Of a stretch of DNA of 64,000 nt, positions 40,214-44,453 are shown piece after piece. The DNA comes from Chytriomyces cf. hyalinus JEL632 (lineage: Eukaryota > Chytridiomycota > Chytridiomycetes > Chytridiales > Chytriomycetaceae). Where the stretch lies: assembly GCA_025435555.1 (NCBI GenBank), contig JAIWWG010000001.1, forward strand, positions 496,001 through 560,000, read 5' to 3'. The position numbers and the translations under genes were made by a program. Under the pieces are notes generated by a model. The model was not told the DNA's origin, did no database searches, and saw only the letters and a list, made by a program, of their open reading frames with translations. Numbering within the stretch: the first letter of the stretch is position 1; each line of letters opens with the position of its first letter.

Positions 40214-40487
40214 ATGTGCAGTAAATATTTAAGATAAATATTCATATTTTTTATTTCTTATTTTTATTCCCACTCCCTTCCGCAATCCCGCAAAATAAAG
40301 CAACCATTTTGTTCAAGAGTGCAAATTGGGCGAATCGCACTCTCGTGTCACCATGAGTTGCTCCTCGCTTTTAATCCACCCCGCCTGGTTTTTAATCTCA
40401 ATCGTCAGACGCGACGGGAACTGCATCAAACAATAAAATCAAAGAAAGAGAAAGAAATCAATCTATTATAAAGCTCAATCCCGCCAC

Positions 40488-40673
40488 TCAGAAATGATGA
40501 ACGTAGTGCCCATTGTGGCTGAGTTTGATGCGGCTACTATTTGTGGAGCTGCGACTGCGGCTGCTTCTCCGGCTGCCTTTTCGACTGCGTCTTCGAGTGC
40601 TTTTTCGACTGGCCCTTCGGCTGCTTCCATATCTCAATGACTTGGAGATGTAGCGAGATAGATCATGCGCCAT
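40488..40673 (-). CDS. Small Ser/Arg-rich basic protein (61 residues)
   Basis: An ATG-started frame of 61 residues. A short N-terminal stretch (MAHDLSRYISKSLRYG) leads into about 28 residues of almost only Ser, Arg and Lys (SRRASRKSTRRRSRKGSRRS), then SRIKLSHNGHYVHHF. It could be a protamine-like or RS-domain DNA/RNA-binding peptide, or an exon of a larger SR protein. Alternatively, it could be a chance product of a short imperfect repeat (the opposite strand repeats GACTGCG/TTCGAGTG-like units). It lies 198 bp from the transposon's left TA. Confidence 0.35.
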   Translation of the reverse strand: MAHDLSRYISKSLRYGSSRRASRKSTRRRSRKGSRRSSRSRSSTNSSRIKLSHNGHYVHHF

Positions 40674-40871
40674 GTGGGCTTTGTGGAGCTGTTTGTGAAG
40701 ATCTGGGTTCCCAGAGAGAGAGTGATGGATAAGATCAATTTACATCTTGGGTGCCGTTGGAGTGTTTGGTGGCCTGCAGGCTTCGGAAGTTACTGGAGGA
40801 TTCGTCATTACCGTGATTGACCGCGACTCGTTTTCATTCAAGAAACGTGTATTACACCCATCGCAGAAATA

Positions 40872-40882
40872 ATGGAACACCA
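40872..40882 (+). repeat. Left terminal inverted repeat
   Basis: ATGGAACACCA immediately inside the left TA. It is the exact reverse complement of the right end. The match extends outward through TA and a further AAA on each flank, so 16 bp are palindromic overall. Confidence 0.85.
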
Positions 40883-40927
40883 GCTAAAAAATAAATATTA
40901 TTATACTTATTATACTTATAATTATAA

Positions 40928-41869
40928 ATGACCAAATCTGTTGACTTTAGAAATGCCGCGGTTCAATGTTACAATCTTTTGCACAGCTTCCGCAAGGTGT
41001 CCAAAATATTCAAAGTGTCGCCCAGTTCCATTTTCAGATGGTCCAAGTCGGATCTGAACGCGCTTCAAATGAAACCGGGTCCGAAGCCCAAACTCACTTC
41101 TCAGATTGTCGCGTTTGTCCGACATACCCTTAAGAATCACCCGTTCAACACTGGTCGGGACCTGCGCAGGAAGATTCACCGTGTCTTTGGAACAACAGTG
41201 TCGCTGACTTTATGTTACTGCGCCATTCGGGTCGCAGGAATGTCGCGTGTCAAACTGAAAACACATTACCGATCCCGTCTTCATGTTGAAAAGATGGTTC
41301 AATTCAAATCTGAAATCCAACGAGCGCAAGAGTTGGGTGCCCATCTTGTTTTTATCGACGAGACAGGCTTTCGCTGCGACTCTTTGCCGCTCTACGGATA
41401 CGCGGTAAAAGGTACTCACCTGATGCGGTACATTGGAAGCAAGACGAACAGAAGAAACATATCCACTTGCGTGGCAACGGACCAAACTGGGATCCGGCAC
41501 ATTGTCCATCGCAAGAATGCGTTTGACGGAGACTCCTTTTTGGGGTTCCTCGCTGGACTTCAAGCACCCGCTGGGACCCATCTGATCATGGACAATGCAA
41601 GCATTCACAAGACAAAGCGCATCAGGGACTTTGCCGCCTCCAAGGCCTGGACCCTTCTGTTTCTGCCTCCTGGAATGCCGGATTTCAACCCTGTTGAAAA
41701 TTTGTTTGGAAATGCCAAGCACCATTTTCGCAAAATTACGGCGACTCTAAATCCAACAGAGCAGCCAGTGGGCTACTGCCGGCTGATCGAGCATGCCTTC
41801 CGACAGGTGGTTCCAGCCACATTCCCGTCCCTCTTTACGCGAGCCCAGGCCCTGTGGTCCGTGCTTTGA
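40928..41869 (+). CDS. IS630/Tc1-mariner family DD34E transposase
   Basis: A cut-and-paste transposase, 313 residues, intronless. The N-terminal helix-turn-helix (residues 1-60, including YNLLHSFRKVSKIFKVSPSSIFRWSK) binds the ends, and a second helical module follows. The DDE_3 catalytic core has D144 in FIDETGF, D222 in IMDNASIH and E257 in PDFNPVENLFG, a DD34E spacing that fits Tc1/IS630. No stop or frameshift is seen. The ATG lies 45 bp inside the left inverted repeat, in a very A/T-rich leader that probably serves as promoter. The Fanzor gene starts 126 bp downstream on the same strand. Confidence 0.93.
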   Translation: MTKSVDFRNAAVQCYNLLHSFRKVSKIFKVSPSSIFRWSKSDLNALQMKPGPKPKLTSQIVAFVRHTLKNHPFNTGRDLRRKIHRVFGTTVSLTLCYCAIRVAGMSRVKLKTHYRSRLHVEKMVQFKSEIQRAQELGAHLVFIDETGFRCDSLPLYGYAVKGTHLMRYIGSKTNRRNISTCVATDQTGIRHIVHRKNAFDGDSFLGFLAGLQAPAGTHLIMDNASIHKTKRIRDFAASKAWTLLFLPPGMPDFNPVENLFGNAKHHFRKITATLNPTEQPVGYCRLIEHAFRQVVPATFPSLFTRAQALWSVL

Positions 41870-41995
41870 GCCGCGTCCTGGTGGCACAGTCTCCAAATTA
41901 CAAAAAAAAAAAGAAAAGAAAAAAAAAATAATGAAATGAGTAATTAGCAGGAACAGCTATAAAAAGAAGCCTCATTCCCTCTTGCTATTTTATTC

Positions 41996-44272
41996 ATGGC
42001 AGCAAAGGTTGAAAAAACGGAGCGAGTTCTTCTGACCCGCTTTCAACTCCTCTTCCGACCGCGCTTCCAGGACCGTATCCAGGATGCCGTCCTCAGAGCC
42101 AGCAAATGCTTTGAAGTTGCTCTGTTCCTGGCCAAACTTGTCATCCTGGACCGATTTGACAATGTCATGCAACTGGCCGGTGGTGGTGCCAGTAACCCCA
42201 TAGACCACTTCAACCACGACACTGCCTCTCGGGTTTCCTCTGATCTAGCAATTGACGAGACTTTCTTTAGACACATGTTGTCCACCGTGACAACTTCATC
42301 ACTGGAGAAGAAACAGGGACCTCCTTTCAAGGAGGAAACAAGAATCAAAATGACACGATACATGGACCTCTACAGCCAATACATTGATCTTGGTACGCTT
42401 GAAGACCTGCGGGGAAATGGCAGTAACCTCAGTCACGTTTTCGGTGGAATGGCAGTGCAAATGGAAACGGCGTACCGGAACAACGTCGCACTCCATTTCC
42501 CGCAGTATTTGAAGCGTTTCATTCGGCTGTCAGTAGAGCTTCACTGGCTTCCCATCTTTAACCAGACAACTGTGGCCGATTTGACAAAGGAGCAACGCAA
42601 AACTGTCAAGGCTGATGGGTCTAAAGTAATTCAGAGACTGATGTTCGCGTACGTGAAGGAACCGGAACCATTGGACCCATGGGCCGAGGATATTCTGGAG
42701 AAAACAAAGTCGCTAATTCCACCGTGTACCCAGCATGACAAGTTGTTTCTGCATCTCAAGTCATCGTCGATGAAGCCTGCCGTGTTTCTCCCTTACATGA
42801 TTGCCATCAACCGGCTCCTCGAACACCACAGCAGAAAGACCATGAACCCTACCCCACTTCGTACGACTCACGTACCAGGCTCCATCACGCTCAACACTGG
42901 AGCAATGGTAGACCTTGTGTTTCAGGACAAGACCGACTTTGATGCGTTGCGGGTGTGGATGGCAAGACAGGGGTACGACTTGTCCAAGTTCAAGGGAAAG
43001 GGTGATTTGTTCTCGTCCGTCAACAAATTTCTTCCAGATGTCAACCCGTCGCTTTTCAACACAAGTCTCTGGCAGTATGTGTGTAGGTTCCATGGTCGCA
43101 GGCGGAGCAAGAAAAAGAAACGCAAGAAAAACCGTGAATTTGGGTTTCTGAAATATGGAGCCATGATGTTCAAGAACACGGTGACGACGGACGGTCACAA
43201 GGCTGGTATCCACTATGTCAACGAGGAAGCTTATCTTGCCGGCCACGCGGACTGCAAATCTGTCAACAATCGGAAAGACTTCAACACTGAATTCCCGTAT
43301 GTCACAAAGTTACCCGAGCAAGACAGAATGGATCTTATGGATTCCCAGAAGTACCGCTTACTCTTTGTCGACCCGGGCAAGAAGAACATTTTGACGATTG
43401 GAACTGGGTGCAAAGGTGGGGGTGTCATCAAGTATACGATGGTTCAGCGTCGACGCGAAGCTTACTTGAAGCGGAACCAGGATGAGTACAATGGGTCTAT
43501 TTCGAGAGTGGTGCGAGACAATAACGGAAACGCCTTGACGTTTGTTCAAAACACCGACTTTGGAGATGTGAACCGAGTGGTAACGCTCGAAACGCTCGTC
43601 AGCATGGGATATGCACAAGACTACACGGGTTCGCATTCTTCATCCAACCTTGAGCGGTTCCGCGCGTACTTGGTTGAGCGACATCGTTGGAAACATGTCT
43701 TGTCGGATTTCTTCCAGAATCAACAACACCGGCGCCGCAAATACCGAGCCCAGCTTGGGGTCCGAAGTTCCGAAAGCAAATTGGCCAACAACATCCGGTC
43801 CAAGTTCAAAGACGGCGACCGGGAGCTGGTACTTTGCTGGGGAAACTGGGGGAGGACCCCGAACATCAAAAATCAAGCACCAACCCCGGGAGTTGGAATC
43901 CGTCGAATCATGGCCCGGCACTTCAAGACGGTCACTGTGGACGAGCGGTATACGTCCAGTGTATGTCCACACTGTGATTCGGAGGTGAGACATCCGCTTA
44001 GTCGACAGACACCAGATGGCGGGACTCGCGACATTCATCACTTGCTACGTTGCAAAAACGAAACATGCGGCAGGTGGTGGCAGCGGGACGTGATGGCTCT
44101 GGCCAACTTCCAGCGACAAGTTTTGCATGGGTTAGAGCATGGGAAAAATCATCCCGTGTTTGCTCCCAGGACCAAGAAACAAGCTGCAGGAGGGAGGAAG
44201 AGAAAAAACAATGATGAAACGGTGGTTCCGGAACAAACTACCAAGCGCAGGGTGGCGCGATTTACCAGCTAG
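41996..44272 (+). CDS. Fanzor, eukaryotic TnpB-like RNA-guided endonuclease
   Basis: Fanzors are RuvC nucleases that use a guide RNA encoded at the end of their transposon to cut DNA next to a short adjacent motif. This intact 758-residue ORF has no introns. RuvC motifs visible: D459 in LLFVDPGKKNILTIG (RuvC-I); the Fanzor-type D649-E650 in VDERYTSSVCPHC; and D698 in WWQRDVMALANF (RuvC-III). The inserted zinc ribbon uses C657, C660, C686 and C691. The N-terminal half is helical (wedge/recognition-like). Two basic clusters, GRRRSKKKKRKKNR in the middle and GRKRK...KRR near the end, look like nuclear-localisation signals. Association with a mariner transposase suggests Fanzor1. Confidence 0.9.
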   Translation: MAAKVEKTERVLLTRFQLLFRPRFQDRIQDAVLRASKCFEVALFLAKLVILDRFDNVMQLAGGGASNPIDHFNHDTASRVSSDLAIDETFFRHMLSTVTTSSLEKKQGPPFKEETRIKMTRYMDLYSQYIDLGTLEDLRGNGSNLSHVFGGMAVQMETAYRNNVALHFPQYLKRFIRLSVELHWLPIFNQTTVADLTKEQRKTVKADGSKVIQRLMFAYVKEPEPLDPWAEDILEKTKSLIPPCTQHDKLFLHLKSSSMKPAVFLPYMIAINRLLEHHSRKTMNPTPLRTTHVPGSITLNTGAMVDLVFQDKTDFDALRVWMARQGYDLSKFKGKGDLFSSVNKFLPDVNPSLFNTSLWQYVCRFHGRRRSKKKKRKKNREFGFLKYGAMMFKNTVTTDGHKAGIHYVNEEAYLAGHADCKSVNNRKDFNTEFPYVTKLPEQDRMDLMDSQKYRLLFVDPGKKNILTIGTGCKGGGVIKYTMVQRRREAYLKRNQDEYNGSISRVVRDNNGNALTFVQNTDFGDVNRVVTLETLVSMGYAQDYTGSHSSSNLERFRAYLVERHRWKHVLSDFFQNQQHRRRKYRAQLGVRSSESKLANNIRSKFKDGDRELVLCWGNWGRTPNIKNQAPTPGVGIRRIMARHFKTVTVDERYTSSVCPHCDSEVRHPLSRQTPDGGTRDIHHLLRCKNETCGRWWQRDVMALANFQRQVLHGLEHGKNHPVFAPRTKKQAAGGRKRKNNDETVVPEQTTKRRVARFTS

Positions 44273-44276
44273 GAAT

Positions 44277-44299
44277 TAACGGGCGAACGTTATTTTTTT
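44277..44299 (+). other. Hairpin plus T7 run between Fanzor stop and right end
   Basis: Five bases after the Fanzor stop, TAACG-GGCGAA-CGTTA forms a 5-bp perfect hairpin, followed by seven T. This is the interval (44273-44352) in which a guide RNA scaffold reaching the right end would be expected in a Fanzor element. It could be part of that RNA, a transcription end signal, or chance. Confidence 0.35.
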
Positions 44300-44341
44300 A
44301 GTAGTTTTCCCATTTATTTTGGTTCATCTTAGTTGTTTCTT

Positions 44342-44352
44342 TGGTGTTCCAT
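44342..44352 (-). repeat. Right terminal inverted repeat
   Basis: TGGTGTTCCAT followed directly by TA. It is the reverse complement of the left terminus. Bases just outside (TATTTTTGTGTTGAAT...) would supply the native guide segment if the element follows the TnpB/Fanzor rule. Confidence 0.85.
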
Positions 44353-44453
44353 TATTTTTGTGTTGAATGTAAGATAAAGCTGAACTTGACAAAGATAATT
44401 GACATGGTTTTCCATCCAGAGATTTGCAGAAACACGAAGTAACAAAAATAGAC

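Follow-up and report, generated by a model that had tools for sequence, protein, structure and literature searches.

A chytrid-like fungus carries an apparently intact mariner-type transposon with a Fanzor gene, whose latest jump seems to have been anchored by its right end only

The genome of the chytrid-like fungus Chytriomyces cf. hyalinus JEL632 carries an apparently intact jumping gene that combines a transposase with a Fanzor, an RNA-guided DNA cutter. It lies in a 64-kb stretch of contig JAIWWG010000001.1 (positions 496,001 to 560,000), here called the window, whose own numbering is used throughout. In its latest jump the element seems to have been anchored by its right end only and to have taken with it 616 bases of the DNA next to its former site, an unusual way of moving for an element of this type. 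The features at the locus are as follows.

40230-40238, plus strand: left copy of the 9-bp direct repeat TAAGATAAA, read as the target-site duplication of the last insertion
40239-40854, plus strand: 616-bp flank of the former site
40853-40854, plus strand: TA at the left end, read as the target dinucleotide of a two-ended insertion at the former site
40855-40882, plus strand: left terminal inverted repeat, 28 bp, whose first 12 bases also occur at C53, a short relative described below
40928-41869, plus strand: DD34E transposase, 313 aa
41996-44272, plus strand: Fanzor1 RNA-guided nuclease, 758 aa
44250-44371, plus strand: putative omega RNA scaffold region, modestly backed, including a consensus hairpin that spans the stop codon (about 44268-44302)
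44342-44369, plus strand: right terminal inverted repeat, 28 bp
44370-44378, plus strand: right copy of TAAGATAAA, directly after the right end
44372-44387, plus strand: predicted guide segment of the omega RNA, with a length of about 15 nt after TA assumed from other Fanzor1 reRNAs (available part of PMC10711439)

Both genes are undamaged, as a first inspection of the sequence (the original prediction) had claimed. The open reading frame (ORF) of the transposase matches the Pfam family DDE_3 (E 5.4e-24). D144, D222 and E257 are invariant among seven aligned transposases, and 34 residues lie between D222 and E257, giving the DDE triad with the D-34-E spacing of Tc1/mariner (IS630-Tc1-mariner) enzymes; HTH_Tnp_IS630 scores 19.9 bits, just under its cut-off of 21.3 bits. 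No HUH Rep-helicase ORF of the Helitron type was found among the ORFs listed in the element. The Fanzor ORF is likewise open, matches PF07282 (TNB) at E 6.6e-6, just above its cut-off, and matches three of three solved Fanzor1 sequences (GtFz1 2.2e-38, SpuFz1 8.1e-15, PpFz1 1.4e-13), to which its predicted model is also nearest in fold (VIA-align). The catalytic and zinc-binding residues sit where they had been predicted: D459, E650 and C657/C660/C686/C691 are invariant in nine aligned Fanzors, and D698 is D in eight of the nine, whereas GtFz1 of Guillardia theta (PDB 9cer) has N at this position. The split RuvC site, the C4 zinc finger and the RD pair (R697, D698) are those of a Fanzor1. A glutamate repositioned next to the zinc ribbon is described for Fanzors in the available part of PMC10711439, and on our reading it corresponds to E650. 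Substitutions between the window Fanzor and four copies fall on the three codon positions as 12/6/32, 70/49/166, 87/62/239 and 72/50/193; the third-position excess in all four comparisons indicates that the Fanzor protein has been under selection in the past.

The two genes are probably also paired in a distant relative. P0002 (49%), the closest among 94 relatives of the transposase, and P0096 (45%), second among eight relatives of the Fanzor, are each encoded on a contig of 3,374 bp from the same source, presumably one and the same contig. By eye, P0098 appears to start with the two ends of a transposase joined to a Fanzor. Viral searches with the two alignments gave five distant loci among 51 candidates for the transposase and 0 of 50 candidates for the Fanzor.

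The limits of the element were set by its copies within the genome (37.8 Mb, 242 contigs), by an element-free counterpart of the left flank at C42 and by the short relative at C53. On the right, conservation extends 17 bp past 44352, the end first proposed. The terminal motif TTGAATG is in place at 9 of 18 loci with compared right flanks, where it is followed by TA (seven loci), TTAA (one) or AAAA (one); in the other nine it is displaced (as in L051), diverged or missing. At the left end the C42 block departs from the window exactly after 40854, where C42 reads GTGTATTA|AGTGC and the window GTGTATTA|CACCC. Exact matches of TTACACCCATCGCAG in the genome are confined to the window and C53 (with up to two mismatches there are 97, against 37 for a reversed control), and at C53 it precedes a right-end fragment, so that C53 is a short relative that has both ends and is flanked by TA on each side. 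Because the departure point at C42, the C53 relative and the right-end conservation together fix both ends, the element is taken as 40855-44369. Its inverted repeats are imperfect over 28 bp with 23 matches, and the longest perfect stretch of 16 bp exceeds the maximum of 14 reached by shuffles (n=200). The perfect 11-bp repeat of the original prediction (40872-40882 and 44342-44352) is present, but each true end lies 17 bp further out, and the TA that had been taken as a target duplication is internal to the 16-bp perfect repeat. Thus a Fanzor1, a mariner-type transposase and two ends do stand together in one element, although not within the boundaries first drawn. Two outcomes had been named in advance as telling against the prediction: other copies do show different boundaries, while homology to Fanzors is present. 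The window copy is the sole full-length copy found, and it alone among 38 matches in the genome search with the Fanzor spans that protein.

The evidence for the latest insertion comes from the sequences flanking the element. A search with the joined window flanks recovered the 616-bp block at C42 (29627-30242), with one mismatch in 616, in agreement with the earlier claim of recent mobility. The block occurs in two places only in the genome, the window and C42, and C42, which lacks the element, runs through the left-end junction as TTA|AGTGC. Counted on both strands of the window, TAAGATAAA is likewise found in two places only, and since these lie directly after the right end and just before the block, it appears that the block and the element were inserted together as a single unit, duplicating 9 bp. 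A readable target duplication had been claimed; it exists, but it is not the TA, being longer and enclosing the element together with the carried flank. TA stands at both element ends in the window and at C53, in keeping with the C42 site, but the duplication around the inserted unit is 9 bp in the window and 11 bp in a second young copy, C60. At the left junction the target and C42 have AAATATTT and GATAAA in common, so the left edge of the block can be placed only to within about 16 bp, and microhomology may have played a part there. Guidance of target choice by the former right flank was considered and rejected: C42 continues as TTAAGTGCAAAAAC and the window target as TTAAGATAAAGCTG, with only TTAAG in common.

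When the insert is left out and one repeat copy is kept, a 239-aa minus-strand ORF crosses the 40238/44379 junction, and the insertion may therefore have broken a host gene. Two ORFs downstream gave no Pfam match.

The copy at C60 is 98% identical, 5'-truncated and starts inside the transposase gene. It has the 11-bp direct repeat TAACAGCAAGT at both junctions, with a duplication score of 11 that 0 of 132 cross-pairs reached in the positioned test. The targets of the window copy and C60 both read T|TAA, and in a cross-flank test of 13 copies these two were the only ones whose own right flank beat the flanks of other copies upstream. A bias towards right ends is also seen across the family. A BLAST search with 40239-44371 returned 35 rows. 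Sixteen of them extend to 11 bases or fewer from the right end, and the left end is present in a single row, that of the window itself; the remainder are the C42 block and 18 inner pieces, partly of copies already counted. Two further left ends were found by eye, at C53 and in a diverged copy at C182. A control mariner family without Fanzor gave 12 left and 11 right ends in 32 rows. Among one-ended copies, 13 are right-only and none left-only for the Fanzor element, versus two and three for the control (p 0.012). Seven full control copies that were compared with L020 have its TA-flanked ends. With a 364-aa ORF and eight full-length copies at about 99% identity, this family (L020-L027) gives the impression of recent activity.

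An omega RNA likely derives from the right end, as homology with Fanzor1 reRNAs (available part of PMC10711439) would suggest, though the present data back it only modestly. In three diverged copies the 3' noncoding part is 89.8-93.5% identical, against 79.5-89.6% for their Fanzor coding segments, but at C60 it is not more identical than the coding part, and a transposase piece at C134 is equally conserved (93.0%). In a consensus fold of ten sequences 97.9% of cells are paired, which 5 of 500 shuffles equalled, and the covariation score was reached by 0 of 500. A single pair is changed on both sides, as matched by 374 of 500 shuffles. Folded alone, the window region behaves like its shuffles, and Rfam gave one match far below the cut-off.

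We consider it reasonably probable that this is a Tc1/mariner-type transposon (DD34E, 28-bp terminal inverted repeats) that carries a Fanzor1 and moves by two modes. The proteins, ends, shared block, direct repeats, right-end bias and the junctions of both modes are read from the sequence. Mode A would be ordinary two-ended insertion at TA, with examples at C53 and, by eye, in the diverged C182 copy. In mode B the right end would be joined precisely ahead of TAA in a TTAA target. Copying or joining would then proceed leftward for a distance that differs between insertions, the left side would be closed at no fixed position, and a duplication of 9-11 bp would result. Both young copies would have arisen in this way, the window copy as the element together with 616 bp of its former flank, C60 as a copy truncated inside the transposase gene; the window site before insertion is expected to have read ATTTAAGATAAAGCTG. 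As both modes share TTAA, the transposase would perform the single right-end joining, while DNA repair would finish the left side. The Fanzor would use an omega RNA that ends at the right end and a TTAA-like target-adjacent motif (TAM), as suggested by the TAM of GtFz1 (available part of PMC10432273), and its cutting of the vacated site would favour keeping the element. The GtFz1 TAM is taken here as TTAA; in the available text of PMC11423790, one sentence orders the TAMs of GtFz1 and SpuFz1 against its own later text and against PMC10432273.

Several observations weigh against this. Clear duplications are confined to the two young copies, with none significant among 11 others tested: C2 and C213 each have a score of 7 (equalled by 11 of 132 cross-pairs), a repeat seen by eye at C134 scores 5 (58 of 132), and C123 scores 11 in a looser test (p 0.002) but 13 bases off the junction, and 5 in the positioned test. 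In 7 of 156 cross-flank tests, each over about 1.5 kb, a match of at least 9 bp arose by chance, so the weight of the window repeat comes from its position at the block edge. At C42 no element copy is left in this assembly. As for the end bias, three of the 13 right-only copies (L049, L051, L052) have related flanks, two control copies (L023, L025) have the same flanks, and the control family was found through its transposase gene and is therefore no random sample. Finally, no mariner transposase is known to make duplications of 9-11 bp.

Other copies add to the picture of the family. L049, L051 and L052 hold the same right-end fragment within their related flanks, with other sequence inserted inside the right end of L051, and seem to descend from a single fossil that another repeat has carried along. 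Older Fanzor copies L045 (C57) and L044 (C221) have a common right end unlike that of the window and possibly form a second subfamily. The C183 copy (L039, about 1496) starts a few bases from the Fanzor start codon, by eye next to a zinc-cluster protein gene; no other transposase was recognised by eye in six-frame pieces upstream of the C183 and C216 copies, for which no library search was made.

In the main alternative, mode B could be RNA-templated, with a transcript running from the former flank through the element to the right end and inserted by target-primed reverse transcription with the enzyme of a long interspersed nuclear element (LINE) acting in trans. A constant 3' end, a variable 5' end, duplications of 9-11 bp and microhomology at the 5' junction are classic signs of this process, and the genome has many reverse-transcriptase ORFs of more than 1,200 aa. 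The 5' truncation, constant 3' end and 7-20-bp duplications of LINE-type insertions are indeed found, the duplications being clear in two copies only. We nevertheless regard this origin as doubtful: the right flanks of the copies have no poly(A) or repeat tail, the targets share a TTAA that contains the TA of mode A, and L073, the sole LINE-like stretch examined, lacks GAATGTAA and CCATTATTTT and has TTGAATG once, on the other strand. At C66, C78 and C238 (the examined L073 among them), reverse-transcriptase ORFs of 1221 and 1278 aa repeat every 5.5-5.9 kb or so on one strand, as if LINE-like elements stood there head to tail in arrays.

Comparison with known elements raises the question of whether the Fanzor itself drives the process. 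Fanzor1 in Mariner elements, Helitron-type Fanzors and the Mucor element MCi-2 were all printed in 2013 (PMC3627910, from whose available part the following comparisons are drawn). PGv-1, PUl-1, PUl-4 and SPu-1 (Spizellomyces) have TA duplications and, like the element described here, inverted repeats; PGv-1 and PUl-1 pair Fanzor1 with a Mariner transposase, as here, while PUl-4 and SPu-1 carry Fanzor1 alone. Unlike the present case, the available accounts of these four report no right-end-anchored copies or carried flanks (PMC3627910). Such a signature is rather seen in the Helitron-type Fanzor1 elements CRe-1, -2 and -3 of Chlamydomonas, which have intact right ends, a right-end bias and 5' truncation, and whose truncated copies have duplications of about 7-19 bp and the same target motif as full-length copies (PMC3627910). 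CRe elements differ, however, by Helitron ends and a TTTT target, in contrast to the DD34E transposase, 28-bp terminal inverted repeats, TTAA target and 616 bp of former flank found here (PMC3627910). MCi-2 likewise combines a constant 3' part containing the Fanzor with differing 5' parts and 11-12-bp duplications that begin with a fixed motif, but it is unclassified, has no recognisable terminal inverted repeats and has a partial Crypton-like transposase in one subfamily (PMC3627910). Perhaps the Fanzor or its omega RNA drives right-end-anchored copying at a TAM-like TTAA, with DNA made leftward, whatever the transposase; three unrelated Fanzor elements would then share the signature because the Fanzor is common to them. 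We hold this to be unlikely. As a direct source of the duplications Fanzor cutting was rejected, since GtFz1 cuts 14-17 bases beyond its TAM (available part of PMC10432273) and the ends of the duplications lie 6 and 8 bases beyond TTAA.

It is quite improbable that an ordinary two-ended mariner insertion at TA hit a site that had gained the C42 block earlier by some other event. TA at both window ends and the two-ended relatives at C53 and C182 would fit, but the block would have to end at the very base of the later insertion; the block, present at two places, is no repeat, nor does a duplication surround it at C42, and C60 is independently one-ended. That the missing left ends merely reflect decay and patchy detection, as the age and breakage of most copies, the AT-rich left leader and the left ends at C53 and C182 missed by BLAST could suggest, is hardly credible given that C60, at 98% identity, and likewise C134 stop abruptly inside the transposase gene and that the control family is balanced in the same genome.

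Movement by both modes, with the transposase joining the right end, is the reading we favour. No published account of mode B in a mariner-type Fanzor element was found in the literature searched, which falls short of most subscription papers. New here are the right-end-anchored signature in such an element, the carried-along donor flank, the element-free counterpart of the former site and the intact two-gene copy. These junctions bear on the question of what a Fanzor contributes to its carrier element: a young insertion with its element-free former site, target duplication and carried flank shows a mariner-type Fanzor element moving in a way not known for a mariner transposase acting alone. 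As the same signature has been printed for two other kinds of Fanzor element, the part played by the Fanzor becomes testable, and the fungus provides an intact gene pair with which to test it.

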